DNA of 64,000 nt, from the NCBI GenBank assembly GCA_945787805.1, contig CALZID010000003.1:62001-126000 (forward strand). Reading direction: 5' to 3'. Below the pieces are notes generated by a model. It saw nothing but the letters and a program-made list of their open reading frames with translations. It did no database searches and was not told the origin of the DNA. Numbering within the stretch: position 1 is the stretch's first letter; each line of letters begins with the position of its first letter. This stretch comes from an uncultured Clostridia bacterium. GTDB taxonomy: Bacteria > Bacillota > Clostridia > Oscillospirales > Acutalibacteraceae. Shown here piece by piece: positions 23,876 to 62,329 of this stretch. A program made the position numbers and the translations under genes.

Positions 23876-23937
23876 TTTCTCACTCCTTTGTAACAACAAA
23901 CAGTATCACACTATTTGTTCAAAGTCCATATAAATTT

Positions 23938-29336: not shown

Positions 29337-29378
29337 CGTTTAAATGTGCTTTTGTAAAAAATATAGGAGGATATGCTT

Positions 29379-32300
29379 ATGAAAAAAGGTATTAAAACAT
29401 TTTGCAAAGTGTTGTCAGTATTTCTTGCCGTTCTTTTCATTCTTGAAGTACTGCCTACACAAGTTATGGCAGAAGCGTATACTGCTGCTGTCGCCGAAAA
29501 ACAATTTATCGAAGAACTTGTGAATAATCCTACTGATGTTGAAAATGCAGACTCAGCAGAGATTCTTTATGAAGTCGAAGAGAAACGAGACGAGTTTACA
29601 AAGGTATATAAAAAGACCGATGGGTCATATACTGCCATCGTTTCTAAAGAACCACTTCATTATTTATATAATGGTGTGTGGGAAGAAATTGACAATAGTT
29701 TATCAAGTGATGGTAATACTTTTACCAATGCAAGTAACATCTTTAATGCTATATTTCCTAAATCACTTGATGATAATGCTCAAATTAGTATTGAAAATGG
29801 CGAAAGCGAAATCGCTTTCTCTGTAAACAATGTTAGTGAGAGTGACGGTGTTGTTGAAAATGCTATCGGCAAAAGTGATACACAGATTGATGCCGTAGAT
29901 AATGCTATTGCTAATACACAATCAAGCATCACTTATGAAGATGTTGAAGCAGACACAGACATTCAATATATAGTTACACCTAACTCGATTAAAGAAAATG
30001 TTATTGTTTCCGATAAAAATAGTGTTAAAGATTCATATTCATTTACAATTGAAAAAGGAAATTTAACTTGTGTTCTTGCAGATGACGGAAGTGTTTCTTT
30101 TAAGAATTTAGATAACAAAGTTGAATTTAGTATCCCGCGCCCTGTTATGACTGATGCTAATTTCGCATTTTCATACGATATCGGTGTTTCATTAACTGAA
30201 AATACTAATGGTACGGTGACACTTGAATATGCACCGTCCATTGATTGGACAAGCAGTTCTGACCGTTCATATCCTATCACTATTGACCCTGCAATTGTAG
30301 TTGACAGTGAGGAACCGGACTTTATCGAAGATACATACGTATGTTACAATAGTGACAAACCCGAAGTAGCTGATGAAAACGGTGCCGATGAGTATCTTAC
30401 GGCATTAACTAATATGTTCACCGGAGAAAACAGCGACGGAACAACTTCAACTCTCGATTCCGAAGTATATACAAAAATCAATACCGACTTTTTCAAGAAT
30501 TTAGGCAACGACATTGTTTTCACAGAAGTGCAATATGTTGTTGCCGGCGCAACAAACACTGATGGAAAATTGTTTGCAAGAGAAATTTTAGGAGATTGGA
30601 ATGTTAACACCGTAACATACAACACTAAACCGGCATTATCAAATGAAATAATTGACTATTATACTTCCCCATTGCCTGAGGGTGAAGAATTTAATAATTT
30701 TACAATTATTCATTTCAATATTACAGAAATTTTTAATGAATGGTTTAACGGCAAAATTAATAAAGGATTTGCCATAACCGCCGCAGAGAACACCTTTTCT
30801 ATCATGGTTATTAATGGCAGTTCTGAAAATACTGCAATGGTTATGGACTACGTTGATTTAGGTGGCTATAACGAAAACCTTAATTATCACAGCCAATCAG
30901 CAGGCAGAGCCGGAACAGGTTATGTAAACGATTTCACACAACACCTTTCAGTGATTCGTGATGACCTTTCAATTGACGGAAATATTATGCCTGTAACCGT
31001 AGGTATGATATATGATACTGCAACTTACGCAAAGGTTGAAGCTTTAAACTATAACAGCATATTGACATACGGCAATAACTGGATTCCAAATTATTTGCGA
31101 GCATTTTTAGTTGATGACGATAATCAACTTACATATTATACAGATACAGGTGCTTCAATTGACTATACACGTTCAACTGATGAAAACGGCGAAGTTGTTT
31201 TTACCGAAACCTATTCTGATATTTACGGTGAACATGGTTACGAAATAAAATACCATGCCGCAACAGAAACAGCAGACGAATATATTACAATAACAAGACC
31301 TGACGGCTATGTTGAACAGTTTAACAGTAATGGACTTTTAGTTTCTGTAACAAATCCCGATTATCCTGAACAAACGATTAATGTTGTTTATGATTCAAGA
31401 ACTCGAATTGACTATATAACTGACGGTGTTGGCAGAAAATATGACTATGTTTACGATGCAACAACTAATTTGTTGATAAAAGTTAAATGCTATTCTGCCA
31501 ATGGTACTGCAATTACTGCAGGAACAACTGAATTGCCGCTTGAAGTTAGTTATGCTTATGATGAAAACAATAACCTTGAAACTGTAACATACCCTGACGG
31601 CAAATCTGTAACATATACATACGAAAACGGCAATTTGACCTCAATGACAAATATTGATGGCTATCGTGTTAAATACGATTACGATTCTAACGGTAGAATT
31701 ACAGAAATTACCGAGCAGGCGTATAATGGCACAAATTATATTGACGGCAACTCCCTGACTTATGAGAGATTGAGTTCAACTCAGATAAAACTTACAGACG
31801 GTACAGATAACTTTGAAATCTATCAGTTTGGCAAGTCCGGAAATCTTCTTTATACCGTTGATAGTTTGGGTAACTATGTTATGAACGAAAGTTCAGGCTC
31901 AACTGACGACACATATTTTATTGCATCATCAGATTACGGCGTGAATTCTGAAAACTTATTACTTAATCCAAGTTTTGAAACTGAGTACAGCGCATTAAAT
32001 ACAGGCCGTGCAAAATATTGGGAGAGTTCGAACTCTCCTTTTGAAAGAGCAACATATGAAAACGCATATTTCGGTGACTATGTTCTCAAAACAGTAAGTA
32101 ATAATGAAGGTGCTGCAGAACAAATTATTCCTGTGATTTCAGGTGGAGATTACACATTATCAGCATATGTTAAATCAAATGCTGAAAGTGGTCAGAAATT
32201 AAATTTGACTTTATATTCTATTGACGATTCGGGTGACGCTGACGACGGAAATACAACAACTATTGAGTCAACAGGGGGTGAATGGCAAAGATACACCGTT

Positions 32301-35300
32301 ACAATCACTGCACCTGAAAATGCAGAAGAACTTGTTGTTGGATTGTCTAATGAAAATGGCGGAACATTCTATATTGACAATGTTCAACTTGAACAGTCAT
32401 TGTCAGCAAGTTCATATAATTATATTACAAATGGCGGATTTAGAAACAATTTAGATTATTGGACTGGCTCAGATGATTTCATAACTGCCGAATCAACAAT
32501 CAATGAAGAAACTGTTAATGCGGTTACTCTACCCGGTGGAACAGATGCAGTAAATACAATCTATCAGACAGTTACAATTAACGGTAAAAAAGATGATGTG
32601 TTTACAGTTGGCGGCTGGTTAAAAGGCTGTTTTGTAAATTCTACTACTAACAACGCTTGGCTGCATAAGATAATTGAAGAATCAGCAGACCCTAAAATCT
32701 GCAATTTCACCGAAGACCGCTACGCACAAATTGAAGTGAGATATCAATATAATGAAATAACAGGTGGAGAAACCGAAGAAACAATAGTAACACATGAAGA
32801 AGAAATCGAAATACCATTTGCTGAAAATATTGATGATTGGCAGTTTGCAGCAAAAAATTTCGTGCTTAAAGGTGATTGCGAAACTATAACAGTTATTGTT
32901 CGTTATTCAAAGCATACTCAAACTGCGTTAGTATCAAATATCGAACTTTCAAAAGATGAAGATGCAGTTGTAATCAGTGAAGATGAAAAAAACACCGAAG
33001 AAAACACCGAAGAAAACACTGAAACTTGTCCTTGTGAAGATTGCGAAGAAGAAAATTGCATTTGTGCTTGTGAAAGCGAAGCGCTTTGCAACTGCACGCT
33101 TTGCAAACGCAGAAGCGACATAAGCGCAAAAGATTCTTTCGGCAACATTACATCAAGCAGTAGTATTGACGGAGTTAAAACTATTCAGACTCTTTCAAAT
33201 TATACCGCAGACGGCAATTATCTCACCTCTGAAATCGATGCTGACGGAAATACTGTTACTTACGATTACAACACTCTCAATGGCATTTTAACCGCAATAA
33301 CCGATGCCAATGGCAATAAAACTTCATATTCTTATGATGCCAATGGTATGTTAACACAAGTTTCGGCAGATAATTCATTGACAAGTTCTGCAAACTATGT
33401 TTATAATAACGATAGATTAGTTGCCATTAGTCATAATGGTTTCACATACAACTTGACTTATGATATATGGGGTCAGTTAACAAGTGTTTCTGTTGGTGAT
33501 ACTACCATTATTTCATATAAATATGGTTCAGGAGCAAATCGTGATAGAATTACACAATCAACCTATCATAACGGCGACTTTGAAAATTCATCAACTACTA
33601 CAACTAAGTATGAGTATAAAAATGGAAATGTCAGCAAAGTCAGAGTCAATAATGTAGTCAAGTATTTGTATGAATATGACTCACAAGGAAATCTTTCTTC
33701 TGTTAGTGAAATAAATAGCCGTACAGTTAAGTATACGGATGGTAGAACAGATGTAATAGATTACAAAACTAAAGATATTATTTACTCATCATATACCAAC
33801 GATGACGGCGAGTTTATCGAAATTATCGGCGGTGTGACATATACATCAAAATCCTACGACAGCGCTTATGACATTACAACTGGTATCACTACTGAGTTTA
33901 GCGATGTTTCTACTTCTAATGGCAAAACAATAGGTACTGTTGATAAGCAGGATTGGTTCGGCAGATACACAGAAAGCATTGTTAAAACTGAAAGTGCAAC
34001 TGACACAAAAGATGAAAACACTTTCGCCGCAGTCAAGACAGAATATACCTATCCCGAATACGCTGACAACAAAACCTCAAACCGTATTGAAAGTTATGTT
34101 AACAAGGTGTATTACGGCACAGACACAGATAACAGTTATACATCATACACAGGCTATTCCTATGATTATGATTCTAACGGTAATATTATTGCAGAGTATA
34201 GCCTTGACGCAGGCGGAACGGAAACTTTGCGTTACGGATATGTATATGATGGACTGAATCAGCTTGTCCGTGTTAATGATGCTGTTGCGCAAAAGACTTA
34301 CACTTATACCTACGACGGTGCAGGTAATATTCTTGCAAAAACAACATATCCTTATACCACAGGTGATTTAGGTACTGCAAGCGGAAGTGTAAATTACACC
34401 TATGACTTAACTTGGAAAGATAAACTTGTTTCATACGGCAATACAAGCCTTACCTATGACAATATAGGCAATCCATTAACCATTGGTGACAAATCGTTTA
34501 CTTGGAGCGGCCGTCAACTTGAAACCTACACGCAAGGAACAAAAACCATTGAATTTGAATATGATGAAAACGGATTAAGACACCGTAAAACCGTGACAGA
34601 AAACGGTGTTGTAACAGAACGGTATGACTATGTATGGGCTAATGGCTCATTAGTTTCACAAACCTACACAACATATTCAAATGGTGAAGTAGCTACAACT
34701 AACAGTGCTAAATTCATTTATGATTCTTGGGGAACTTTGCAAGGATTTGTTCTCAATGATACAGCAACATATCTTTATACAAAGAATTTGCAAGGTGACA
34801 TTACATCAGTTGTAAATGAAAACGGACAGACAATTCTCAATTACACCTATGACGCTTGGGGTGCAGTAACTTTCTCTGCAACTTCAATGCAGAATATGTT
34901 GTTAGCATATACTCTTTCATATGTCAGCCCGTTCACCTATCGTGGTTATTGCTATGACTATGATATTGAACTTTATTATTTGCAATCAAGATACTATTCA
35001 CCTGAAATCGGTAGATTTATTAATGCGGATAGTACGGATTATTTAGGCGCTACGGGAACAGTATTGAGCTTTAATCTGTTCTCTTATTGTGAGAATAATC
35101 CAGTTCTAAGCGAGGATGCAAACGGTGCATTTTCTGCTACAATAGTTTTTAACGCATTAAAAAATGTTTTCAACTTTTTAAAAACTTCGTTTTTCAATAG
35201 TTTGCAAAAACCATGGTCTGTAGAAAATGGATATTTGAATATAAGAACAAGTGCAATAGGACGAGTAATTAATTTTATTATTAAGCAATTTGTTGCGGGA

Positions 35301-35687
35301 AAAACAGTGGGAATAGCTACTGATTTATTGGGAGATATAATGGTTAAATATCTTAAGTCTAATAAAAATCTTGCTATTAAAATTGCAAGAAATATAATTG
35401 ACTTTTTGATAAATAGTAGTGTGGGTAAATTTATACTAAAAACTATTGTTGGCTCAATACTTGCAAAAAAATTTCACTTCAAAAGTAGTTTAAAAGACCA
35501 TGTTGTAAGTAGCATTATTCAAGACATTATAGCAATTAAAAGCAAAATAGGTGAAAAGATTTATATAGTCATTTCTTCGTTTGGCTCAATCGGTGATATT
35601 TTGGCATTATTTTTATTTGATATGATAGATGGTAATATTGATGGAAAGTTTAGAATAAAAGTAAATTCAAAAGGGAAAGTGACATAA
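29379..35687 (+). CDS. Secreted Rhs/YD-repeat polymorphic-toxin-like protein
   Basis: 2102 residues. A signal peptide ends near VLPTQVMAEA. A DNRLRE-like segment (about 315-435) with TDGKLFAREILGDWNVNTVTYN follows. YD repeats start near 700. Two carbohydrate-binding-like beta domains (about 870-1010 and 1030-1190) and a Cys-rich linker (CPCEDCEEENCICACES) precede the main Rhs barrel. The core ends with YLQSRYYSPEIGRFINADST and ENNPVLSEDANG near 1916. The last 185 residues form a different, hydrophobic tip with three possible membrane helices and no recognised toxin fold. AGGAGG spaced 8 bases supports ATG 29379. Exported, likely contact-dependent effector (inference). Confidence 0.88.
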   Translation: MKKGIKTFCKVLSVFLAVLFILEVLPTQVMAEAYTAAVAEKQFIEELVNNPTDVENADSAEILYEVEEKRDEFTKVYKKTDGSYTAIVSKEPLHYLYNGVWEEIDNSLSSDGNTFTNASNIFNAIFPKSLDDNAQISIENGESEIAFSVNNVSESDGVVENAIGKSDTQIDAVDNAIANTQSSITYEDVEADTDIQYIVTPNSIKENVIVSDKNSVKDSYSFTIEKGNLTCVLADDGSVSFKNLDNKVEFSIPRPVMTDANFAFSYDIGVSLTENTNGTVTLEYAPSIDWTSSSDRSYPITIDPAIVVDSEEPDFIEDTYVCYNSDKPEVADENGADEYLTALTNMFTGENSDGTTSTLDSEVYTKINTDFFKNLGNDIVFTEVQYVVAGATNTDGKLFAREILGDWNVNTVTYNTKPALSNEIIDYYTSPLPEGEEFNNFTIIHFNITEIFNEWFNGKINKGFAITAAENTFSIMVINGSSENTAMVMDYVDLGGYNENLNYHSQSAGRAGTGYVNDFTQHLSVIRDDLSIDGNIMPVTVGMIYDTATYAKVEALNYNSILTYGNNWIPNYLRAFLVDDDNQLTYYTDTGASIDYTRSTDENGEVVFTETYSDIYGEHGYEIKYHAATETADEYITITRPDGYVEQFNSNGLLVSVTNPDYPEQTINVVYDSRTRIDYITDGVGRKYDYVYDATTNLLIKVKCYSANGTAITAGTTELPLEVSYAYDENNNLETVTYPDGKSVTYTYENGNLTSMTNIDGYRVKYDYDSNGRITEITEQAYNGTNYIDGNSLTYERLSSTQIKLTDGTDNFEIYQFGKSGNLLYTVDSLGNYVMNESSGSTDDTYFIASSDYGVNSENLLLNPSFETEYSALNTGRAKYWESSNSPFERATYENAYFGDYVLKTVSNNEGAAEQIIPVISGGDYTLSAYVKSNAESGQKLNLTLYSIDDSGDADDGNTTTIESTGGEWQRYTVTITAPENAEELVVGLSNENGGTFYIDNVQLEQSLSASSYNYITNGGFRNNLDYWTGSDDFITAESTINEETVNAVTLPGGTDAVNTIYQTVTINGKKDDVFTVGGWLKGCFVNSTTNNAWLHKIIEESADPKICNFTEDRYAQIEVRYQYNEITGGETEETIVTHEEEIEIPFAENIDDWQFAAKNFVLKGDCETITVIVRYSKHTQTALVSNIELSKDEDAVVISEDEKNTEENTEENTETCPCEDCEEENCICACESEALCNCTLCKRRSDISAKDSFGNITSSSSIDGVKTIQTLSNYTADGNYLTSEIDADGNTVTYDYNTLNGILTAITDANGNKTSYSYDANGMLTQVSADNSLTSSANYVYNNDRLVAISHNGFTYNLTYDIWGQLTSVSVGDTTIISYKYGSGANRDRITQSTYHNGDFENSSTTTTKYEYKNGNVSKVRVNNVVKYLYEYDSQGNLSSVSEINSRTVKYTDGRTDVIDYKTKDIIYSSYTNDDGEFIEIIGGVTYTSKSYDSAYDITTGITTEFSDVSTSNGKTIGTVDKQDWFGRYTESIVKTESATDTKDENTFAAVKTEYTYPEYADNKTSNRIESYVNKVYYGTDTDNSYTSYTGYSYDYDSNGNIIAEYSLDAGGTETLRYGYVYDGLNQLVRVNDAVAQKTYTYTYDGAGNILAKTTYPYTTGDLGTASGSVNYTYDLTWKDKLVSYGNTSLTYDNIGNPLTIGDKSFTWSGRQLETYTQGTKTIEFEYDENGLRHRKTVTENGVVTERYDYVWANGSLVSQTYTTYSNGEVATTNSAKFIYDSWGTLQGFVLNDTATYLYTKNLQGDITSVVNENGQTILNYTYDAWGAVTFSATSMQNMLLAYTLSYVSPFTYRGYCYDYDIELYYLQSRYYSPEIGRFINADSTDYLGATGTVLSFNLFSYCENNPVLSEDANGAFSATIVFNALKNVFNFLKTSFFNSLQKPWSVENGYLNIRTSAIGRVINFIIKQFVAGKTVGIATDLLGDIMVKYLKSNKNLAIKIARNIIDFLINSSVGKFILKTIVGSILAKKFHFKSSLKDHVVSSIIQDIIAIKSKIGEKIYIVISSFGSIGDILALFLFDMIDGNIDGKFRIKVNSKGKVT

Positions 35688-35689
35688 TT

Positions 35690-36376
35690 ATGAGAATTAA
35701 TATTAAAAACTGTAGTCAAACTGATTTTTTAATTAAAATTAATAATTCTGTGTCATTTCAATTGTTTCCAAATGAAGTTAGAACGGTTGAAATTAGTAAC
35801 AAAACTAAACTTTCACTATGCTATAATTATACAAGCACTTATAACAAGGTGAAAATTGGATGGACAAAAAGAAAAATTGCAAATATAGTTTTAGATACTC
35901 ATTATATTCTAAAAGATATTGATAACATAGGTGAAATTAGAGTTCACACAGTTCGAGAAGCGGTAGCCAAACCTTTAAATTTGTATTATGAATATTTTGT
36001 AATTGATAATATTGATGTTGGTTGTTCTATGAATTGTTTCTATACGGTATGTGGAAAAGAAGAATTTGAATATGTTTATAAAAAGGCCTATAGAAAAGAA
36101 GTTATTGATAGAGTTATATCTTCATCAATTGCGGGTATAATTACTAGTATATCCTTAGGTGCCATTTTGAAGTATAATATATCAATTATAATCTTAATTA
36201 TGTTGTTTTTTGTGCTTGGAATAATTATAGAACTATTAATCATCTTTTCTGAACGCAAAAAGATTAAAATTATAGATGGCATAAATGATACATTCATTAG
36301 TTCTTTCTTTTCTTCAGTTAATCGTCCAACATATATGACATGGAAGGATGGGAAACCTTTCCCCCAAAAATATTAA
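35690..36376 (+). CDS. Putative immunity protein for the Rhs tip; two-helix membrane protein
   Basis: 228 residues, no family recognised. A beta-rich N-terminal half (INNSVSFQLFPNEVRTVEIS) is followed near residues 145-185 by two adjacent membrane helices, SSIAGIITSISLGAIL and ISIIILIMLFFVLGIIIELL. The ATG lies two bases after the rhs stop, so translation is coupled. A small gene in this position usually neutralises the variable Rhs tip. Because both tip and partner are membrane-prone, a membrane-acting toxin is a reasonable guess, not evidence. Confidence 0.6.
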   Translation: MRINIKNCSQTDFLIKINNSVSFQLFPNEVRTVEISNKTKLSLCYNYTSTYNKVKIGWTKRKIANIVLDTHYILKDIDNIGEIRVHTVREAVAKPLNLYYEYFVIDNIDVGCSMNCFYTVCGKEEFEYVYKKAYRKEVIDRVISSSIAGIITSISLGAILKYNISIIILIMLFFVLGIIIELLIIFSERKKIKIIDGINDTFISSFFSSVNRPTYMTWKDGKPFPQKY

Positions 36377-36382
36377 GTCAAT

Positions 36383-36508
36383 CAGGGGACGGTTAGCGTG
36401 AATCGGGAATGCACAGGGGACGGGGAATGCACAGGGGACGGGAATGCACAGGGGACGGTTCCTTGTGTTGACGGTTAACTTTGTAGGGGCAGGTCTTCGC
36501 ACCTGTCC
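36383..36508. repeat. REP-like array (four GGGGACGG units) plus a palindrome
   Basis: GGGGACGG occurs at about 36385, 36416, 36434 and 36451, three preceded by ATGCACA. The last copy is followed by TTCCTTGTGTTGACGG, allowing CACAGG/CCTTGTG pairing. A separate hairpin GGGGCAGGT/ACCTGTCC lies at 36486-36507. The same unit recurs just before the RAYT gene at 37015-37045. No gene is present. Confidence 0.75.
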
Positions 36509-36520
36509 TTAATTCATTTA

Positions 36521-37015
36521 CTATTGTAACTCTTTCAAATTATACCGCAGACGGCAATTATCTCACATCTGAAACAGATGCGGACGGAAATACGGTTAAT
36601 TATGACTACAATACTCTTAACGGTATTTTAACTGCTGTTACTGATGCTAACGGCAACAGAACAAACTATTCTTATAATGCAAACGGTGCTTTAACACAAG
36701 TTTCGGCCGATAATGCGTTGACAAACTCTGCAAATTATGTGTATAATAACGATAGATTAGTTGCCATTAGTCATAATGGTTTCACATACAACTTGACTTA
36801 TGATATATGGGGTCAGTTAACAAGTGTTTCTGTTGGTGATACTACCATTATTTCATATAAATATGGTTCAGGAGCAAATCGTGATAGAATTACACAATCA
36901 ACCTATCATAACGGCGACTTTGAAAATTCATCAACTACTACAACTAAGTATGAGTATAAAAATGGAAATGTCAGCAAAGTCAGAGTCAATAATGTAGTCA
37001 AGTATTTGTATGAAT
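36521..37015 (+). pseudogene. Orphan fragment of the rhs gene
   Basis: These 495 bases are collinear, with no gaps, with 33181-33675 of the large rhs gene (constant offset 3340). I count 41 mismatches in the first 221 bases. The last 274 bases (36742-37015) are identical. The fragment has no start region and ends abruptly where the REP sequence begins. It encodes YD-repeat sequence without tip or core and is interpreted as a displaced Rhs segment. Confidence 0.88.
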
Positions 37016-37045
37016 TGCACAGGGGACGGTTCCTTGTGTTGACGG
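37015..37045. repeat. REP-like unit upstream of the RAYT gene
   Basis: GCACAGGGGACGG followed by TTCCTTGTGTTGACGG, the same sequence as at 36446-36474. It abuts the truncated rhs fragment. Confidence 0.75.
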
Positions 37046-37084
37046 AAATGGTATAATGTGGTATAATTGTTTTGGTGATGAAAT

Positions 37085-37837
37085 ATGCCAAGACAAGCAC
37101 GAAAGAAAAGTGAAAGTGGAATATATCACATAATGCTTAGAGGAATAAACCAACAGCAGATATTTGAAGATACAGAAGACTGCGAAAAGTTTATTCAAAT
37201 ACTACATGAATGTAAGGCAGTAAGTGATTTTAAGATATTCGCTTACTGCCTTATGAATAATCATATACATTTATTAATCAAGTTTGAAAAAGAACCTATT
37301 GAACAGGTTTTTAAGAGAATTGGTGCAAGATATGTATATTGGTTCAATGTTAAATATCAGAGGGTAGGACATTTGTTTCAAGACCGTTTTAAAAGTGAAC
37401 CTGTTGACGATGACTCATATTTCTTAACGGTATTGCGATATATTCATCAAAATCCGGTCAAAGCGGGAATTTGTAAGAAAGTTGAAGATTACAAACACAG
37501 TAGTTATAAAGAATACATTACAAAAACTTGGTTAGTTGATACGGATTTTGTATTTGATATGATTTCAAAGAAAGAATTTGTCAGATACAACAATGAAGTA
37601 AATTTTGACAAATGCCTTGAAATTGAAGAAACAACAAAAATTCGTGTAACTGATGAACAGGCAAAACGAATTATTAAAAAGATTTCAAATTGTGAGAATT
37701 CAACTGAATTTCAAGCCCTTGACCCGAGACTTCGCGATGAATACATTGCCATTCTAAAACAAAACGGTTTGTCAATAAGACAAATCAGCAGATTGACTGG
37801 AATAAGTTTTGGTGTTGTTAGAAAAAGATTTGATTGA
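37085..37837 (+). CDS. REP-associated tyrosine transposase (RAYT, Y1/HUH family)
   Basis: 250 residues. The HUH motif is in YCLMNNHIHLLIKF near residue 60. The catalytic Tyr is expected in FLTVLRYIHQNPVKAG near 115-130, and HLFQDRFKSEP is conserved. A C-terminal helix-turn-helix (LSIRQISRLTGISFGVVRKRF) is typical of RAYTs. These single-strand transposases act on REP palindromes, and matching repeats lie on its left side. A GGTGATG site precedes the ATG. The gene appears intact. Confidence 0.9.
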   Translation: MPRQARKKSESGIYHIMLRGINQQQIFEDTEDCEKFIQILHECKAVSDFKIFAYCLMNNHIHLLIKFEKEPIEQVFKRIGARYVYWFNVKYQRVGHLFQDRFKSEPVDDDSYFLTVLRYIHQNPVKAGICKKVEDYKHSSYKEYITKTWLVDTDFVFDMISKKEFVRYNNEVNFDKCLEIEETTKIRVTDEQAKRIIKKISNCENSTEFQALDPRLRDEYIAILKQNGLSIRQISRLTGISFGVVRKRFD

Positions 37838-38149: not shown

Positions 38150-38396
38150 TCAATATATTTCAAGTTCAAACTAAACCATCTTCAACTTTTATTGACAAAT
38201 TTCTACATTTGTACCCCAATTTTATACATTTATGAAATTGTATTGATTTCATATTTAAGAAATGTCATTATTAATTTAATTACAAAAATTAATTTTTATA
38301 GAAGCAAAAGATTTTACTTGTTTTTTAGTAAACTATTATTAAATATTAACATTATGCAAGTAAAATCAACATTATGACAATTAAAGGAGAATCTTG

Positions 38397-39209
38397 ATGA
38401 TTAATGAAGAAAAAAACGGCAATGAAATACATTTCGTTAAAACCAAAAGACCCCGTGTCTTTACAAACGCATTATCTAAACTTGTTTTAATGTATATGGG
38501 AAAAAGAGATGGAAAAAAAGGGATTCCTTCTGACAGAAACAATGCTGAATGGATGTCCCCTACTTTAAGAAAAGAATATGCAAAAATAGACGAAAAAATG
38601 GCAAAAGTTTGGTATGATGTTGATGAAAAATGTGGAGAATTATATGCAAAAACTGAATCGCTTATATCTGATTTTGAACAGAATGCATTAGAAATCAAAC
38701 GCATTCACACATATATTCTCAGGGAAGGTATTCTATACAAAGATGTAATAGGCAATAATCACACCTTACCAAAAGAATTACATGATATGATAAATGCAAA
38801 AAGAAACAGTGAAGGGAAATGTGATGCATTAGGATTAAGATTGCGTAGATATAATGAATACAATAAATTGATTCATAACGCTAAAGAACATTTTTTTAGA
38901 AAGAGAATAAAGTTGAAAAGTGATTTTCAGGAAATTAAAAGAAATTATCAAGTAATCATCACATTAGAGTCTGAACTTGATATTTTCTTTTGGGAGTTGT
39001 GTTCCAATATTGAAAGAAGGACATCTTGGTATTGGCAGGGTGTTTTATTAAAACACCCACAAAAAAATATTATGCCACAAACACCCCCAAAAGCTAATAA
39101 TAATTATATTAATAACATACACAAAGAAAGACGTGAGGGTCTGAAAAATAAGATTGCATCGATTGAGACATGTCATAAAGAAATTTTAGAACTTGAATAT
39201 GTCGAATAA
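38397..39209 (+). CDS. Unrecognised coiled-coil protein, first gene of a four-gene cassette
   Basis: 270 residues, mostly charged and alpha-helical, no signal peptide or membrane segment. Long helices occur around AKIDEKMAKVWYDVDEKCGE and FQEIKRNYQVIITLESELDI. AAAGGAG spaced 7 bases before the ATG at 38397 supports this start. It is followed within 12 bases by a second coiled-coil gene and then by two membrane proteins on the same strand. I do not recognise the family; a cytoplasmic partner of the membrane complex is a contextual guess. Confidence 0.7.
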   Translation: MINEEKNGNEIHFVKTKRPRVFTNALSKLVLMYMGKRDGKKGIPSDRNNAEWMSPTLRKEYAKIDEKMAKVWYDVDEKCGELYAKTESLISDFEQNALEIKRIHTYILREGILYKDVIGNNHTLPKELHDMINAKRNSEGKCDALGLRLRRYNEYNKLIHNAKEHFFRKRIKLKSDFQEIKRNYQVIITLESELDIFFWELCSNIERRTSWYWQGVLLKHPQKNIMPQTPPKANNNYINNIHKERREGLKNKIASIETCHKEILELEYVE

Positions 39210-39221
39210 GGAGGAATAATA

Positions 39222-39647
39222 GTGTCAATATTTACTAGCAAAAAACGTTCTAAACCTAATTTGAGGTCCGTTTCTAGAATACCCTATGGTGACCTTTCAT
39301 TAAATGTTTATAAGATACGTCCATACACCATTAGTTTAGTAGAAGGATTAAATGATCAATTGAATGAAATTATTAATAATGCTCCAGATTGTATAGATGG
39401 TCAGAATGGTGATATATTAGATAATTACATAAAAAATTGGGAAAACAGAGCAAAAGCCAACCTTAATACACAGCGTGCATTAAGAATAAATATAATTAAT
39501 CAAATTGACTGTTCAAGAAAAGCTAATGTGAAAAATGCTAAAGATTGGCTTGATGTTGAAAAGAAAAATTTGGCACAAATTCAACAGGAACTGTCAATAA
39601 TTCAACAAAAATACGAAGAAGAAAGACAAAAATATACAAATTGGTAA
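39222..39647 (+). CDS. Small coiled-coil protein, second cassette gene
   Basis: 141 residues from GTG at 39222, with AAGGAGG spaced 7 bases. The basic N-terminus (SKKRSKPNLRSVSR) is followed by helices; the last 40 residues (DWLDVEKKNLAQIQQELSII onward) form a clear coiled coil. Family unknown. Tight spacing to both neighbours (12 and 18 bases) shows it belongs to the cassette. Confidence 0.68.
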   Translation: MSIFTSKKRSKPNLRSVSRIPYGDLSLNVYKIRPYTISLVEGLNDQLNEIINNAPDCIDGQNGDILDNYIKNWENRAKANLNTQRALRINIINQIDCSRKANVKNAKDWLDVEKKNLAQIQQELSIIQQKYEEERQKYTNW

Positions 39648-39665
39648 TAGATAAGAAGGTTATTT

Positions 39666-40649
39666 ATGATTAGTATAAAAGGAAAAATAAAAGAAAACAA
39701 AGTCGACGCCGAAATAGATGATTATGGAGATTTCTCCGCGTTTGAAGCCGGTGGAGCGAATTGGGAAGCAAAAGTCCATAAATCAAAAACTGAAAAGGAA
39801 TTTGAAAGAGATGAGTATCAATACACAGGAATTCAACAAATAGGAACATCCTTTCCAAATCCTTATACAAGAGACCAGCTAATTAAACTTAAATTTGCTA
39901 ATAATACAATATTTCAAGATTCAATAGTTGCAATTATTGTAACCATAATAGCGGTTGTTATCGACGTAATATGTTATGGGTTGTTAATTGAAGAAAATAT
40001 TCCTGCTGATGAAAGTATGAATATTTTAGATTATTTACCAGCTTTGGGAGCAGCTATAGCTATTGATGTTTTGCCAATGTTTTTTGCTCAAAATTTACAT
40101 AGAATAAATGTTAGTAAGAAGAAAGTAATTAAAATTTTTGGTGTTTTAAGCATTACATTAATCTTTATATTTTTAATAATTATATCAGCTTATCGAATTT
40201 GCGCATTATATTTTGTTGATGATCCAAGACCAATTGTTGATTATATTTGGGCAATATTTATGGTTATGATTCCAATTGCCACAACAATGATGTGCTTTAT
40301 AGTAAACTATATTTCTTTTAATCCCATTAAAAATGAATTAATGCGTTTAAAAAATCAAGAATTGTTCATTCAGGAAAATATTTTTGAAATTGATGCAATG
40401 ATAACAGAAGCTGAGGCAATACCTAATTACAAGGAAAATCTTATTATTCAGGATAATGCTTTATATGAGTCTGCGTGTGACTTAATTGAAACTATTGGAG
40501 AATATTATAAAAGTTATATCCGAACAGAAATAATACCAATATTACACTCTCCGGCTGACACAACAGAACTCTCAGCAGATAGAAATGCAAAGTCTATTAA
40601 AAGTATTAAATTGCCTGTTTATACTATAAATGAAGGAGAAAACCAATGA
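39666..40649 (+). CDS. Four-TM membrane protein with cytoplasmic coiled tail, third cassette gene
   Basis: 327 residues. Hydrophobic helices lie at about 86-108, 123-143, 153-183 and 190-217. Asp100 and Asp134 sit inside the first and second helices. About 110 helical residues follow. This architecture, with an OmpA-like partner encoded next (4-base ATGA overlap), recalls MotA/ZorA-type stator subunits, but I see no sequence motif proving that relation. Family not recognised. The overlap implies a stoichiometric membrane complex with the next protein. Confidence 0.7.
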   Translation: MISIKGKIKENKVDAEIDDYGDFSAFEAGGANWEAKVHKSKTEKEFERDEYQYTGIQQIGTSFPNPYTRDQLIKLKFANNTIFQDSIVAIIVTIIAVVIDVICYGLLIEENIPADESMNILDYLPALGAAIAIDVLPMFFAQNLHRINVSKKKVIKIFGVLSITLIFIFLIIISAYRICALYFVDDPRPIVDYIWAIFMVMIPIATTMMCFIVNYISFNPIKNELMRLKNQELFIQENIFEIDAMITEAEAIPNYKENLIIQDNALYESACDLIETIGEYYKSYIRTEIIPILHSPADTTELSADRNAKSIKSIKLPVYTINEGENQ

Positions 40650-41857
40650 AAAAGAGACTAATAATTTTTTTGATATTGGTGATTGTAGTATTGGCATCTG
40701 CTTTTTTATGTAAATCTTGCGTAGACAAACAGCCTAAAACCGACATTTGTTTTGTTATTGGAAATACTAGAAATGTAAAACAGATAAGTACCAATATTTT
40801 ACAAGACGAGATTTGGTATGCGATGGAAAATAACAGTAATTATTCTGTAATCGTCATTGATGGTAATCCTAATGAAATCTCAATTAGTGGTCAAATGACG
40901 ACTTCCAACCGAGTTTTTGTTGGAGAAGATAATAATCAGGAAATACTTAATAATCGTTTAAAAGAAATTTCAACCTGCAATCCTAATGATGAAGAAATTG
41001 ATATATTAGCAGCATTAAACTATGCATCAAAAACAATTGATAAAAATGCAGATAATAAAAAAATTGTTATATATAGTTCCGGAATTTCAACTACTGGCGA
41101 ATTAAATTTTTCACAAAATCCAGAATTAATTTATGACGACCCACTCGAAATTATTGAGCTATTAAAGAGTAGACATGCTTTACCCGATTTGTCTAATATA
41201 GAAATTGTATGGTATGGACTAAATCATGTTGAAGGAGAACAAAAAGAATTCGGTGCATTTGAATTATACAAACTCAAAAATTTATGGGGACAAATATTAC
41301 AAGAATGTGGTGTAAAATTTGAAAATATAAATGAAATTTTTAATGAAAAACCTCCACAAATAATATCAACTGAAAATACAGTTGATAAGATTGATTTCCC
41401 TAAAGTAAGTACAGCAGAAATTGGAGGAATTCCTTTTTCAATAGAAGATTTTAATTTTAAACCTGGCACTTCTATTTTGCAAAATAAAGAAATGACTATT
41501 GAAATATTGAAGCCAATCGTACAGGATATTAAAAACGCAGGCTATCCTCAATTCTATGTAATAGGAAGTACTGCCTCTGCTGACTCGCACAAAGATTGCA
41601 TCGAATTAAGTTTAGAACGTGCGAAAGTAATTAAAAATATGCTTAATGATTTAGGTATACCAGAAAGTTGTCTTAAAATTTATGGAATAGGCAGAGAGTA
41701 TATAGACGACAATTATCGTTGGAGGGTAAATGACCTAACTGCGAATGGTAAACTTGATCCTGTACTTTCCCAACAAAATAGAAAGGTAATGCTTATTCCT
41801 ATCGACTCCAACAGTGGTGATGATTTTATAAAAGATTACAACAAATATTTTAATTAA
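40646..41857 (+). CDS. Membrane-anchored OmpA-like protein with a central VWA-like domain
   Basis: 403 residues. A single N-terminal membrane helix (residues 4-22, IIFLILVIVVLASAFLC) leads to an alternating alpha/beta region (about 33-215) resembling a von Willebrand A fold without a clear MIDAS site. The C-terminal region (about 265-395) is OmpA/MotB-like: YVIGSTASADS, LSLERAKVIKNMLNDLGIPE, YGIGREY and QQNRKVMLI. Such domains bind peptidoglycan. OmpA-like domains are uncommon in Gram-positives outside flagellar MotB. Its start overlaps the four-TM gene by 4 bases, implying a joint complex across membrane and cell wall. Confidence 0.75.
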   Translation: MKKRLIIFLILVIVVLASAFLCKSCVDKQPKTDICFVIGNTRNVKQISTNILQDEIWYAMENNSNYSVIVIDGNPNEISISGQMTTSNRVFVGEDNNQEILNNRLKEISTCNPNDEEIDILAALNYASKTIDKNADNKKIVIYSSGISTTGELNFSQNPELIYDDPLEIIELLKSRHALPDLSNIEIVWYGLNHVEGEQKEFGAFELYKLKNLWGQILQECGVKFENINEIFNEKPPQIISTENTVDKIDFPKVSTAEIGGIPFSIEDFNFKPGTSILQNKEMTIEILKPIVQDIKNAGYPQFYVIGSTASADSHKDCIELSLERAKVIKNMLNDLGIPESCLKIYGIGREYIDDNYRWRVNDLTANGKLDPVLSQQNRKVMLIPIDSNSGDDFIKDYNKYFN

Positions 41858-41998
41858 ACTAATAACTTGTACATTAAAACCGCTCATTTAATGGGTGGTT
41901 TTAATCTATGAAGGTTGCTTAATATGATAAAACTAAACATTGTTAAAACAATCTAGTCATTATAATTGATTTTCAATTATACTAAAAAGGAGATTAAA

Positions 41999-44203
41999 AT
42001 GAAAGAATTAAAAGTAAATTTAGAGAATTGTTATGGAATATCAAAATTGGAATATAAATTTGATTTTTCTGATGAACGTGCATACATAATATACGCCTCT
42101 AATGGCCTGATGAAAACATCATTCACTAAAACATTTGATGCAATTTGTAACGGTAAAAAGCCAGTTGAAGAAATTTTTGGGAGAGATCCAATTTGCGACG
42201 TTACTGATGAGACAGATGTTCCAATTCCATATGATAATATTTTTATAGTTAAATCATATGATGAAAGTTATTCATCTAAAAATATGTCTACATTACTTAT
42301 GAATGAAAAACTAAAGAAAAAGTATGATGATGCTGTAAAGAATATTTTAGCAAAAAAGCAAGACTTAATTAATCGATTGAATTATGGATTTGATAAAAAT
42401 TCAACTTTTGAAACGGAGTTTAACTCAACATTTGCATGTGACGATTTTCTAAAAAAGCTAGAAGAGATTTATAATAATGGAACTGGCAAAGAGTATAAGT
42501 TGGATTTTAGTAAAATACCATATTCCGACATGTTTAATGATAAAGTAAAGGAATTTATAAACAGTAATTATAAAGAATTAATGGAATATAAAAATGAATA
42601 TGAAGACCTTATTAGTAGCTGTAAGTATTTTAAAAAAGGCATTTTTAGCCAATATAATGCTGATAACATTAGTGCTTCATTAAGCGAAAACGGTTATTTT
42701 GATGCCGGACATAGGCTTTTGTTGAATGATAGTTCGCAAATATTAACTGCTGTGGAACTTGAAGAATTGTTGCAACGAGAAAAAGAAAAAGTCTTTACAG
42801 ACCCTAAATTAGTAAAAAAATTTAATTCCATAAACAAAAAACTATCTAAAAACAATCAATTGAGAAATTTTAGAAAAATAATTGAAAATGATTTAGATTT
42901 AATTAGTGAGTTGGTACCTTTTGAATCTTTTAAACAAAAATGTTGGAATAGCATACTGAAAGAAAACTGGGTTGATATAGAAAAACTTGTTATTGAATAC
43001 AAAAAATCTAAACACGATATTGAAAATTTGCAAAAAGAAGCATCTTCACAAGAAAACCAGTGGCGAAAGGTACTAGAGATATTTGAAGAACGTTTCCATG
43101 TGCCTTTCAAAGTGGAAATTGCTAATCAGGAAGATGTTGTTTTAAAGAATAGCGTACCTACTCTCGTCTTTAAATACAAGGATAAATATAGTGGAGATGA
43201 GGTTACTATCGATAGAAGTAAACTTCAGTCGTTACTTAGTGGTGGCGAAAGAAGAGCACTGTATTTGATGAATATTATTTTTGAATTAGAGTCATTAAAA
43301 CAAAAAAATAAACAAATGCTTATCATTTGTGACGATATTGCTGAATCATTTGACTATAAAAATAAATATGCAATTATTGAATATTTGTATGAAAATCATA
43401 ATTATAATAATTTTAATTTTATAATTTTAACACATAATTTTGACTTCTTTAGAACAGTATCGTCAAGATTGTTAAATAGAAATAGAGAGCACTCTTTGAT
43501 GGCTAATTATGATATAGCCAATAATCAAATTAAATTGTCTAATGGTGAATATTTGAAAAATGTTTTTGCATATTGGCGTCAAAATATTCATAAGAATGAT
43601 GCAATTGTTATAGCAACAATACCATTTATTAGAAATATCATAGAGTATACCAAATCAGAAAAGGATGATACTTATCTTTTCTTGACAAGTTTGTTACATT
43701 ATAAAAAATTCTCTTCTCCATCAACAGATAAAATCACATTAGGTGAACTTAACGATGCTATAAAAACTGTGTGGAAAGATGTGGATATAATTAAAGATAG
43801 AGATGCAAATGAATCGGTATTATCTTTACTTATTGGTAATGCTCGTAATATTATGAATACAAAAGCGGATACGGAAGTTAATTTAGAAGATAAAATAGTA
43901 TTATCAATTGCTAGTCGTATAATAGGCGAAAAGTTAATTGTAGACGACTTGCTTCGTAGCGGGGATTATGAAAACGAAATTAAAAAAATGGATAGAAATC
44001 AGACACGGGAGTTAATAAATTTATACAAAAGCGTTTACGGGAACAATGCTGAACTAGTCAAAATTATAGAACCTATATCACTTTTTACTTCGGAAAATAT
44101 TCATCTTAACTCTTTCATGTATGAACCACTTATTGATACTAGTCCAAATGAGTTAAAGAGATTACTTACTATCCTCATTCCTTTATGTGAAGTGACACCA
44201 TAA
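41999..44203 (+). CDS. SMC/ABC-type ATPase with variant Walker A (RloC/PrrC-like ATPase fold)
   Basis: 734 residues. Walker A is IYASNGLMKTSF (about 31-42), where the usual GK is MK; this variant is familiar in a family of AAA ATPases linked to phage defence. A central coiled region follows. Then come the ABC signature LLSGGERRALYL (about 413), Walker B MLIICDDIAESFD (about 440) and H-loop ILTHNFDFF (about 477). The last 220 residues are helical with no recognised nuclease motif. AAAAGGAG precedes the ATG. A 141-base gap with only a weak hairpin separates it from the OmpA cassette, so coexpression is possible. Confidence 0.75.
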   Translation: MKELKVNLENCYGISKLEYKFDFSDERAYIIYASNGLMKTSFTKTFDAICNGKKPVEEIFGRDPICDVTDETDVPIPYDNIFIVKSYDESYSSKNMSTLLMNEKLKKKYDDAVKNILAKKQDLINRLNYGFDKNSTFETEFNSTFACDDFLKKLEEIYNNGTGKEYKLDFSKIPYSDMFNDKVKEFINSNYKELMEYKNEYEDLISSCKYFKKGIFSQYNADNISASLSENGYFDAGHRLLLNDSSQILTAVELEELLQREKEKVFTDPKLVKKFNSINKKLSKNNQLRNFRKIIENDLDLISELVPFESFKQKCWNSILKENWVDIEKLVIEYKKSKHDIENLQKEASSQENQWRKVLEIFEERFHVPFKVEIANQEDVVLKNSVPTLVFKYKDKYSGDEVTIDRSKLQSLLSGGERRALYLMNIIFELESLKQKNKQMLIICDDIAESFDYKNKYAIIEYLYENHNYNNFNFIILTHNFDFFRTVSSRLLNRNREHSLMANYDIANNQIKLSNGEYLKNVFAYWRQNIHKNDAIVIATIPFIRNIIEYTKSEKDDTYLFLTSLLHYKKFSSPSTDKITLGELNDAIKTVWKDVDIIKDRDANESVLSLLIGNARNIMNTKADTEVNLEDKIVLSIASRIIGEKLIVDDLLRSGDYENEIKKMDRNQTRELINLYKSVYGNNAELVKIIEPISLFTSENIHLNSFMYEPLIDTSPNELKRLLTILIPLCEVTP

Positions 44204-44336: not shown

Positions 44337-44591
44337 TTATAACAATCTGAACAACAAACTACTTGTTGCACCATTTGTTCTATATCTTTGTTCGGTTTCA
44401 AGCATTCGTTCTTTTCTTAAATCGTTCAGAGCTCGTCTAACTGTTGATTGAGACATTTTCAAATCTTTTGAGATTGTAGCTATTGATGGCCAACATTCAT
44501 TCTTTTCGTTAGCTCGGTCATATAGATACAGATAAACAAGAACTGCTCTACTTGGTAATTCAGATTGATACACATGGTTTAAATTACCCAT
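44337..44591 (-). CDS. Helix-turn-helix protein (HTH_36 type), replication or plasmid-function regulator
   Basis: 84 residues. The winged helix-turn-helix begins LPSRAVLVYLYLYDRANEKN and continues CWPSIATISKDLKMSQSTVR and RALNDLRKERMLE. This type is common in Tn1549-like elements and replication initiator N-termini. It overlaps the 3' end of the coupling-protein gene by 8 bases and has a GGAGG site inside it. Last gene of the transfer operon. Confidence 0.82.
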   Translation of the reverse strand: MGNLNHVYQSELPSRAVLVYLYLYDRANEKNECWPSIATISKDLKMSQSTVRRALNDLRKERMLETEQRYRTNGATSSLLFRLL

Positions 44592-46449
44592 TTTTCATCG
44601 CCTCCGCTATAGTTCTATGTTTTGTTATGTGATTTACTGGGACTATACGCAATTGTGTCTTATCTTTCCCATTTTTATGTTGTGTAATATCGTGTTCGTC
44701 TGTATCGTCTTCGTTCGTTTCATGATGTAACCATTCAGGATGAAATTTAGCAACAATAGCATTCATCAACTCTTTTCGTGAAGCATATTCGACTTTTCTG
44801 TTAGCATTATCAGATACGATATATGGTTTACTCTCATCAAATTCTATTCCCCATTCAAAGAAAAGTTTGAGTTTAGTTTTCATTGGATTAACACCTGTTT
44901 TCATTACAATAAACTGACCTTTAGGTAGTGATTTAAGCTCGTCAGGAGTCATTAATGGTCTTTCAATCATCTGTAAACTCTGTGATGGGTCATTCTTACC
45001 ACGGGATACTGAACCAGACATTACTGTTCTACTACCTAATGCTTTAGAAAGTTCTTCAGCAGAACTACTGTTAGGAGCAAAGCCACCGAATAAGGTTATT
45101 TGTGTATTATCTACGATAATATCTGCACCTTCTTTCCCATAGTTTTTTTCAAGTTGTCTGAATGACTGAATAATAGGCACTATCTGTAATCTACGAGAAC
45201 GAGACGCACTAAACATCATTTCGGCAGATTCAATCTTTGGAAGTGTACCAAACTCATCACAGAAAAATACACATCTGTTTTTGAGTTTTCCACCTTGTTC
45301 ATCGGCTACTGCAAGTATTTCTCGATATAACTGTTGAATAATAAGAGATACCATAAAGAAGGTGTTGGGATTTTCTTCGGGCATATTGATAAAGATTGCA
45401 CACTTTTCTGAACAGAACTTCTCGGCATCTATTTCGGTATCAAAACACAATAATTGCTCTAACTCTGAATCAAGAAAAGTATTCAGTCTTGATAATGCTG
45501 TACTCATAACACTTGCCATTGTGTTTTCGGAAGTGGTTAGAGCCGCACCTGCGAACCACTTTGCTTTATGGTCATCAGGTAACATAGATATTAAGTTTTG
45601 GAATTGATTTTTACCTTTCTCTTGTGTAGGCTCAAGCAGTTCTTGTATAACCTTGAATACAGAAACAATATGTCTTTTACTCGGCTCACAAAATTCTGCT
45701 ACAAGCAATATTGTTGCAGTAAGGATGCCTTCAGATGCATCGTAGAAATATGCATTCTGTCCGAATGAAGCAGCATCCATACCCGATAAGATAATTGTTT
45801 TAGATATAATCTTGGCATATTTCTCTGCTTTTGCTTTGTAAGAGAGTTTATCAGGATTAGATAGATATAAGTCCATATATTTATTAACGAGGTGTAAAAG
45901 GTTGTTTCCGTTTGAACGAGTCGGATTTCTTAAATCAATTACTGCTACACTATAGCCATAGTCTTTGGCTATGTAACCATAGTTTCGCATAATATCGCCT
46001 TTGGTATCTGTTGATAAAAAAGACATACCACTCGCACAGGCATATTCAATACAAGGATAAAGCCAATATGCAGTCTTACCCACACCTGCCGCACCAATCA
46101 TCAACACATGAACATCTCCTGTATCAACCAATGCAGTTGTGTTATGTTTTCCACCTTTGCAACCCACAACTATTCCTTGAGGCAATGGTTGTTCTTTCTT
46201 CTTTATTGATACAGTTGGAGTTTTGCCATTTAATGCTTGTTTACGCCATTTCTTTGGTGTAAATGGAATGTGTTTGTAAATCTTTTGTAGTTCTGACTTA
46301 GTTGCCCATCGAGCAGTACCGTGTTGTCCGTCACCAACAGTTTTGCTCTTGATATTATTCAGGTTGTATATGTGAGCAATGAGGGATATACTACCGAACA
46401 GACAAAACATTACCACAAAGGCAATAATCAAAGTTGCAATGTTTGACAT
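44584..46449 (-). CDS. Type IV coupling protein, VirD4/TraG family
   Basis: 621 residues. It links the relaxase-DNA complex to the conjugation channel. One N-terminal membrane helix (IATLIIAFVVMFCLFG), Walker A MIGAAGVGKTAYW (about 118), and Walker B CVFFCDEFGTLPKI (about 388) are visible, with QITLFGGFAPNSSSAEELS and PLMTPDELKSLPKGQFIVM typical of the TraG group. A GAGG site precedes the ATG. It sits 17 bases after the primase gene. Confidence 0.93.
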   Translation of the reverse strand: MSNIATLIIAFVVMFCLFGSISLIAHIYNLNNIKSKTVGDGQHGTARWATKSELQKIYKHIPFTPKKWRKQALNGKTPTVSIKKKEQPLPQGIVVGCKGGKHNTTALVDTGDVHVLMIGAAGVGKTAYWLYPCIEYACASGMSFLSTDTKGDIMRNYGYIAKDYGYSVAVIDLRNPTRSNGNNLLHLVNKYMDLYLSNPDKLSYKAKAEKYAKIISKTIILSGMDAASFGQNAYFYDASEGILTATILLVAEFCEPSKRHIVSVFKVIQELLEPTQEKGKNQFQNLISMLPDDHKAKWFAGAALTTSENTMASVMSTALSRLNTFLDSELEQLLCFDTEIDAEKFCSEKCAIFINMPEENPNTFFMVSLIIQQLYREILAVADEQGGKLKNRCVFFCDEFGTLPKIESAEMMFSASRSRRLQIVPIIQSFRQLEKNYGKEGADIIVDNTQITLFGGFAPNSSSAEELSKALGSRTVMSGSVSRGKNDPSQSLQMIERPLMTPDELKSLPKGQFIVMKTGVNPMKTKLKLFFEWGIEFDESKPYIVSDNANRKVEYASRKELMNAIVAKFHPEWLHHETNEDDTDEHDITQHKNGKDKTQLRIVPVNHITKHRTIAEAMKNG

Positions 46450-62279: not shown

Positions 62280-62296
62280 AAATATCGTCCTTTCAA

Positions 62297-62329
62297 ACAA
62301 AAAACTCTGCTACATTAAGTAACAGAGTT
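62297..62329 (-). terminator. Terminator after the CAP lipoprotein gene
   Basis: AACTCTG and CAGAGTT pair, followed on the minus strand by a T-run. It separates the CAP gene from the adhesin. Confidence 0.78.

Follow-up and report, generated by a model that had tools for sequence, protein, structure and literature searches.

A four-gene cassette of Clostridia, apparently shared with actinobacterial plasmids, and its possible role in envelope sensing

Introduction

What kind of unit is formed by four closely packed genes, here called g1 to g4, that occupy positions 38397-41857 (+ strand) of a 64,000-nucleotide stretch of DNA (hereafter, the window) from an uncultured Clostridia bacterium of the family Acutalibacteraceae (assembly GCA_945787805.1, contig CALZID010000003.1, positions 62,001 to 126,000), and what might such a unit do for its carrier? 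An earlier note on this DNA, made from the sequence alone, had described a four-gene cassette of no named system, lying in a conjugative element and echoing the plan of MotA/MotB or ZorA/ZorB. Here we examine the locus through comparative analysis of Bacillota genomes, plasmids and protein family libraries. Our results support joint inheritance of the four genes well, and lead us to favour, tentatively, a reading in which their products act as an envelope-anchored sensor or transducer that feeds interchangeable cytosolic effectors, probably for defence.

Results

ORF (open reading frame) calls and gap measurement confirm the four adjacent genes and the spacing of 12, 18 and -4 bases between them given in the earlier note, which had also proposed a search for their conserved co-occurrence. 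That search yields no refutation: 18 Bacillota loci with a recognisable g4 were collected, and the complete g1-g4 set is present in 16 of them. With the other three genes present in 16 of the 18 loci gathered by g4, the linkage exceeds chance. Fifteen loci keep the four genes side by side in unchanged order, the gaps running from -110 to 71 bases when start codons are chosen mechanically. Locus L033 holds g1, a fusion of g2 to the N-terminus of g3 and a divergent g4, so that the unit is rearranged with all its parts kept; in L073, the contig ends before g1 is reached and a stop interrupts g4; and in L070, where no match to g1-g3 was found in the stretch read, g4 stands behind a gene for a TIR protein with a transmembrane (TM) segment. 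Already in the first g3 search, over 200 genomes of the family, the three relatives found besides the window (18-37% identity) each carried g1-g4 in order.

The module is rare and patchy across Clostridia-type bacteria. A g3 profile matched six of 394 genomes of the order, own genome included, one of them falsely (5/394), and a g4 profile matched 12 of 398 genomes of the family, again with the own genome and with one OmpA-only protein (11/398). Among 391 genomes of the class, 80 matches to the g4 profile were obtained at E <= 0.001, of which six, own genome included, span most of g4; the remainder were classed by their matched ranges as signal-peptide, OmpA-only or VWA-only matches. Eight class-level matches were examined besides the own genome and G234, and four proved to be members. 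In 299 genomes of the phylum, 11 g4 matches reached E <= 1e-8, full-length in the own genome and G861 only. No g3 match was found in any of the seven genomes listed for the same genus, and neither one g3 scan nor one g4-alignment scan of viral contigs returned a relative; phages gave no cassette match. Scans of named genomes produced no match to the window g4 and, in a further scan, two loci (L078, L079) that are copies of the L006 and L007 contigs and were not counted again. Candidates from G562 (L039, a cardiolipin-synthase-like protein), G179 (L035), G959 (L074), G985 (L076) and G1037 (L077) were excluded as false, OmpA-only or other proteins, and G912 (L075) was excluded as VWA-only.

Between L036 and L073, nonsynonymous divergence (dN) is 0.21-0.28 for g2, g3 and g4 and the third codon position is the most diverged (identities at codon positions 1, 2 and 3 of g3 are 0.73, 0.83 and 0.43), a pattern that indicates purifying selection; synonymous divergence (dS) is 1.8 for g2 and could not be computed for g3 and g4. 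The g3 and g4 trees are poorly resolved, with 3/12 and 3/14 inner branches well supported, and group L008 with L072, a locus of a different family within the class (support 100/99 in g4).

Relatives were also sought beyond the phylum. A tblastn search of 72,556 plasmids with g4 recovered three records, all from Nocardiaceae, at 21-23% identity (E 2e-12 to 2e-17); g3 queries gave no match against plasmids. On Nocardia plasmid pPE-7, genes resembling g1, g2 and a g3 with four TM segments stand in order, followed by a gene for a 163-residue protein and then by g4, while on two Rhodococcus plasmids a gene for a four-TM protein lies downstream of g4 and genes for helical proteins lie upstream on the other strand, the order being broken. 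Hidden Markov model (HMM) scores of the plasmid proteins run from 4e-68 to 7.5e-61 for g4, are 2.1e-4 (pPE-7) and 0.0034 and 0.016 (the other two) for g3, and reach 4.8e-8 for g1 (pPE-7). In profile-profile comparison (hhalign), g3 matched the actinobacterial four-TM proteins at a probability of 68%, as against 0.1-0.5% in four comparisons of unrelated families. On the basis of the HMM and profile-profile scores, the sequence relationship is certain for the plasmid g4, likely for g3 and plausible for g1 and g2, and the module is apparently common to two phyla, Bacillota and Actinomycetota. Genes for TPR proteins lie near the cassette on both Rhodococcus plasmids, with CHAT- and NYN-domain genes on the DN22 plasmid, and a relaxase gene falls within the stretch shown on two of the three actinobacterial plasmids.

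The product of g4 (40646..41857, + strand, 403 residues) combines a signal segment of lipoprotein type with a VWA-type and an OmpA-like domain. The signal segment (40646..40720) ends at Cys25, and this cysteine is invariant in 17 of 17 aligned homologues. A lipobox-like box is present in 14 of 15 g4 proteins, 11 by pattern and three (LCGC) by eye, the box of the window protein (LCKSC) being atypical; g4 thus appears from its sequence to be usually of lipoprotein type. No acidic residue occurs in the hydrophobic segment of any of 14 aligned members. The OmpA-like domain (residues 271-351; 41456..41698) matches PF00691 above the Pfam cut-off at 2.8e-08 in the window protein, and OmpA was found in 17 members of a set of 64 cassette proteins from the 18 loci, which contains 18 g4 entries, one truncated. 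Its best PDB profile matches are Pal, YiaD and YfiB (3.9e-16, and 1.7e-15 in a second comparison). In OmpA, the Asp of the TD motif and the conserved Arg are the two contacts to diaminopimelate; in g4 the Arg is kept (Arg325 in the window), and g4 likely binds the cell wall. The VWA-type domain (residues ~30-235; 40733..41350) lacks the DxSxS sequence of the metal-ion-dependent adhesion site (MIDAS), which is not visible in any of 14 aligned g4 proteins. Its VWA_2 match in the window is sub-threshold (0.038), and VWA_2 was matched by three of the 64 proteins (best 0.0047). The profile of the N-terminal half of g4 matches a MIDAS-bearing VWA protein of L075 at 1.2e-13, which strengthens the VWA reading; against seven other VWA domains the g4 profile gave 0.02 or weaker. 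The combination of an OmpA and a VWA-like domain proposed in the earlier note is supported at the level of sequence.

Two further observations concern proteins resembling parts of g4. The L075 gene (6967-7731, - strand), which codes for an exported protein that has the MIDAS motif and resembles the N-terminal half of g4, lies near a gene for a TM/helical protein cut by the contig end, and the pair may be a two-gene relative without the OmpA domain. In L031, a second lipoprotein-type gene, OmpA-only, stands directly behind g4 (8054-8545, - strand).

The four-TM protein with intramembrane Asp residues described by the earlier note is borne out in g3 (39666..40649, + strand, 327 residues), whose TM segments start near residues 90, 123, 157 and 194 and hold Asp100 in TM1 (codon 39963..39965) and Asp134 in TM2. 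These segments and the topology were obtained with a hydropathy script rather than a dedicated TM predictor; the Lys and Arg counts of successive loops (12/0/5/2/10) fit an arrangement with both termini inside. All 13 aligned g3 proteins have the TM1 Asp, which was also read by eye in six more (L071, L072, L033, L134, L135, L136), and a TM2 acid is usual in Bacillota g3. The predicted cytoplasmic tail measures ~115 residues in the window and ~80-145 residues across g3 proteins, and no large loop is present between TM2 and TM3.

These features bear directly on the possibility of a true ion-driven rotary motor of the MotAB/ZorAB type, in effect a Gram-positive Zorya. The general plan is shared with the MotA/MotB flagellar stator (a multi-TM protein and a wall-binding partner) and with ZorA/ZorB, the motor complex of the Zorya anti-phage system, which likewise joins a membrane protein with a cytoplasmic helical tail to an OmpA-domain partner (PMC11890865). 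The buried Asp and weak ZorB3 matches in 7/64 cassette proteins (best 0.0032), the commonest of the PADLOC matches to that set, point the same way. However, MotA homology of g3 had to be rejected: the window protein has no PF01618 (MotA_ExbB) match, and hhalign against six MotA relatives gives a probability of 0.4-0.5%. The motor plan is also at odds with the lack of a large TM2-TM3 loop and with the length of the tail given above. The comparison with ZorA was made through PADLOC only. The acid lies in g3 and not in the g4 anchor, which ends in the conserved Cys and is of another type than the single-TM anchor of MotB or ZorB that had been suggested, and g4 carries an extra VWA-type domain. 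The OmpA domain that g4 has in common with ZorB best accounts for the ZorB matches. No ZorC, ZorD or ZorE was detected with PADLOC among the six window proteins scanned or, for the other loci, among the 25 commonest of 231 families. Of the features examined, the OmpA domain alone agrees with the MotA/MotB or ZorA/ZorB plan, whereas A-subunit homology, the B-subunit anchor and, in the scans just given, the ZorC/D/E genes do not, and we regard a motor as highly improbable. The genome of the window has no MotA/ExbB match at E <= 0.001, so no flagellar context is seen, as had been noted.

The remaining two genes, g1 (38397..39209, + strand; 270 residues from an ATG, the ORF starting at 38394/38397) and g2 (39222..39647, + strand; 141 residues, GTG start), code for soluble, charged proteins of helical type in which the hydropathy script found no TM segment. 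Part of the g1 relatives share 'GxxD' and 'YWxG' motifs.

Comparison with known families agrees with the earlier statement that no named system has this composition, in that PADLOC (2023 models), Pfam, NCBIfam and PHROGs give no convincing assignment beyond the OmpA and VWA parts. The window proteins have OmpA-part or weak matches only in NCBIfam, PADLOC and PHROGs; the 64 cassette proteins have weak PADLOC matches (best 0.0018) and, besides OmpA and VWA_2, scattered single Pfam matches (best 1.6e-4, among 25 of 61 families). No description of the g1-g4 gene set was found in the literature searched, most subscription papers lying outside the search, and we rate the module as new in gene composition. 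With Pal, YiaD and YfiB, g4 has in common a lipid-anchor signal and an OmpA-type domain, and it differs from them by the VWA-type domain, the mostly replaced Asp of the TD motif and the partner genes g1-g3. The iSTAND/vWA-MoxR ternary conflict systems have a vWA component and, in some members, an OmpA domain behind a TM segment, which their authors think acts near the wall (PMC7159879); in g4, by contrast, both domains are together in one exported protein. Pfam scanning of the window neighbours revealed neither a MoxR ATPase nor an iSTAND component.

Genes for TIR proteins or Ser/Thr kinases lie near 7 of the 18 loci, within stretches read that extend from ~1 kb to 9 kb on each side and are cut by contig ends in several cases (e.g., L007, L030, L072, L073). 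TIR genes were detected by Pfam near L008, L036, L070 and L071 and by a local model near L029 (1.5e-7) and L032 (9e-18), kinase genes by Pfam near L036 and L037 and by reading or local model near L032 and L070. A 'kinase' seed derived from L032 drew other proteins, apparently leucine-rich repeats, and was rejected; kinase claims therefore rest on Pfam or on the local model with reading. One L036 protein in the PP2C model does not resemble PP2C and was set aside. Three unclear loci were counted as negative: L072, with a TIR model score of 0.0035 on a protein resembling an HSP90-type ATPase; L030, with PP2C-like (1.8e-6) and kinase (0.0035) scores; and L073, with a protein that is TIR-like by eye and has no Pfam family.

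To place these neighbours in context, 116 proteins within 5 kb of the cassette in 17 loci were compared by Pfam with 116 control proteins in 14 stretches of contig 1 of the same genomes. TIR_2 was found in 10 neighbours, T4SS-DNA_transf (the T4SS coupling ATPase) in seven and Pkinase in four. For the controls, 25 of 161 families were listed, and the three are not on that list; since it reaches down to families with one member, each of the three can have at most one control protein. The neighbour set left out the neighbours of L033 and proteins above 1600 residues, L095 proteins were dropped from the controls to match 116, and before these drops (125 proteins each) the controls amounted to 43,788 residues and the neighbours to 53,663. 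The local TIR model, itself trained on near-cassette TIR proteins, found none in the control stretches. PADLOC, run on the neighbours without a control, gave among 25 of 231 families mad8 (8), PD-T4-6-type (up to 4 each), SAVED-TIR (4), mad6 (3), ThsB (3), spbK (2) and Csm3 (2).

Three loci have arrangements suggestive of coupling. In L008, g1-g4 continue a run of genes for a TIR protein, a helical protein and a ParA-type ATPase, the successive gaps up to g1 being 35, -16 and 31 bases; in L070, the TIR-TM gene immediately precedes g4; and in L032, the last 7 bases of g4 are shared with a gene for an FHA protein, after which come FtsW/RodA (FtsW by Pfam) and, by reading, genes for a penicillin-binding protein, a kinase and a PP2C-type protein. 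The last arrangement also speaks for a function in control of the cell wall or division, in which a sensor of wall status would feed kinase and phosphatase signalling with no immune role, and the OmpA-like domain and lipoprotein-type signal of g4 likewise point to the wall. Adjoining wall-synthesis genes are seen in L032 only, however, and the patchy occurrence of the module (in the 11 family and 5 order genomes counted above) and its presence on plasmids and near conjugation genes speak against such a function, which we judge unlikely.

The window copy is apparently cargo of an integrative conjugative element, as indicated by an integrase-like gene (22622-23899, by eye) on one side of the cassette and by virD4 (44584-46449) and, further on, a gene for a conjugation-type ATPase (53567-55393) on the other, in a genome of 1.84 Mb in 23 contigs; the conjugative location put forward earlier is thereby supported. 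An integrase-like fragment also lies beside the related virD4 of L132. A coupling-protein gene (VirD4/TrwB-type) is found near 8 of the 18 loci (the window, L028, L029, L030, L033, L034, L036 and L071). With the position of the window copy between integrase-like gene and virD4, and with the actinobacterial copies on plasmids, two of them having a relaxase gene in the stretch shown, this could mean that the module serves the mobile element itself, through surface or entry exclusion or control of the mating channel. Against this, 10 of the 18 loci have no coupling-protein match in the stretch read; among these, L006 is flanked by an ABC transporter and by metabolic genes, and L007 adjoins a gene for a class I tRNA synthetase (by eye). 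In addition, a related element of the same genus (G1442), with virD4 DNA ~74% identical, carries different cargo at the place of the cassette. An element-serving role has a real but limited chance of being correct.

Downstream of the cassette, after 108 bp, starts the gene for a 745-residue SMC/AAA-type ATPase (41966..44203, + strand) that PADLOC identifies as the candidate defence protein PDC-S46 (9.8e-231). It is not demonstrably part of the cassette unit, and a neighbour of this type was found in the window only among the cassette loci. For the cassette and the two genes that follow it, PADLOC matched this ATPase as both PDC-S46 and PDC-S06; its other results were a weak match of mad8 to the VirD4-type gene and two at chance level.

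Other genes of the window and of related loci were recorded alongside. Positions 29373-37056 of the window code for a 2104-residue RHS-repeat protein with carbohydrate-binding domains, followed by a 228-residue TM protein and a 112-residue RHS-like fragment (by eye), a set that resembles a locus of polymorphic-toxin type. A Y1 (IS200-like) transposase with weak C-terminal helix-turn-helix matches lies just upstream of the cassette (37085-37837), and a 1092-residue protein similar to SpaA isopeptide-forming pilin-related proteins on Gram-positive plasmids is coded at 59022-62300. Elsewhere, L036 (13015-17253, - strand) has a 1412-residue Ser/Thr kinase fused to a Card1-like endonuclease domain just under the Pfam cut-off, and L070 (489-18474) has genes for a PP2C-type protein, a kinase and three TIR proteins around its solo g4, with an acetyltransferase-like gene and a protein with an FtsZ/tubulin-like glycine motif (both by eye). 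A small unnamed family of 104-130 residues occurs upstream of the cassette in L029 (8473-8865) and, duplicated, in L032 (7069-7449 and 7558-7872).

Discussion

The recurrence of the four parts through divergence, rearrangement and an apparent change of phylum, together with the g2-g3 fusion, argues that the g1-g4 products form one complex, which would span the envelope. Its topology would place g4 outside, g3 across the membrane and g1 and g2 on the cytoplasmic face, and the effector couplings, clearest in L008, L070 and L032, suggest a sensor with exchangeable outputs. Under the reading that we tentatively favour, g4 would be exported and stay attached to the outside of the membrane through its signal segment or a lipid anchor, with the OmpA-like domain touching the cell wall and the VWA-type domain serving as the protein-contact or sensing part. 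The membrane partner of g4 would be g3, with its buried TM1 Asp and cytoplasmic helical tail. A disturbance of wall or membrane, such as phage entry, might shift g4; g3 could relay the signal inward by conformational change, possibly with ion flow; and a platform of g1 and g2 would activate a cytosolic effector that differs between loci. Candidate effectors are the TIR proteins and Ser/Thr kinases, perhaps the CHAT and NYN proteins of the actinobacterial plasmid, and perhaps PDC-S46 in the window. Physical complex, sensing, ion flow, effector coupling and defence role are all proposed here from sequence and gene context.

Several observations weigh against the envelope-sensor reading. The g1 and g2 families are so divergent that their members were recognised in several loci by position and protein type only, and the hhalign links to the plasmid g1 (1.8%) and g2 (21.8%) are weak. 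The Asp of the usual TD motif is replaced in most g4 OmpA-like domains, which is why wall binding is put as likely rather than shown, and g3 of L032, of L038 and of all three plasmids has no acid in TM2, the ion path being a conjecture. A clear TIR or kinase gene is lacking from the stretch read in eleven of the 18 loci, the window among them, and effector coupling is consequently not universal. Neighbour genes were called with a simple ORF script, in which wrong frames can occur, and immune-type neighbours may reflect location in mobile islands. The lack of a clear TIR or kinase neighbour in those eleven loci and the variation of neighbours from one locus to the next would also suit a passenger module that does something unrelated at the cell surface, for instance adhesion or contact, the immune-type neighbours being bystanders; VWA domains often bind proteins, which accords with such a role. 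The operon-like TIR and FHA arrangements of L008, L070 and L032 argue otherwise, and we consider a mere passenger improbable.

Conclusions

Carried further, the envelope-sensor reading would make the module a surface immune receptor of a new class, occurring in both Bacillota and Actinomycetota and composed of a VWA/OmpA lipoprotein, a four-TM transducer, a two-protein platform and interchangeable effectors, a proposal that we hold to be doubtful as it stands. If true, such a receptor would be a counterpart of membrane receptors whose signal goes to death effectors inside the cell, and conjugative elements and plasmids would have had a part in its spread. Should the module instead act in conjugation or in control of the wall, it would still be of note that the libraries used contain no match for three of the four families that make it up, and that it is rare yet apparently shared by two phyla. 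Many described bacterial immune systems sense phage inside the cell, and a mobile, putatively envelope-spanning unit linked in some genomes to TIR and kinase genes would be a candidate for surface sensing in single-membrane bacteria.

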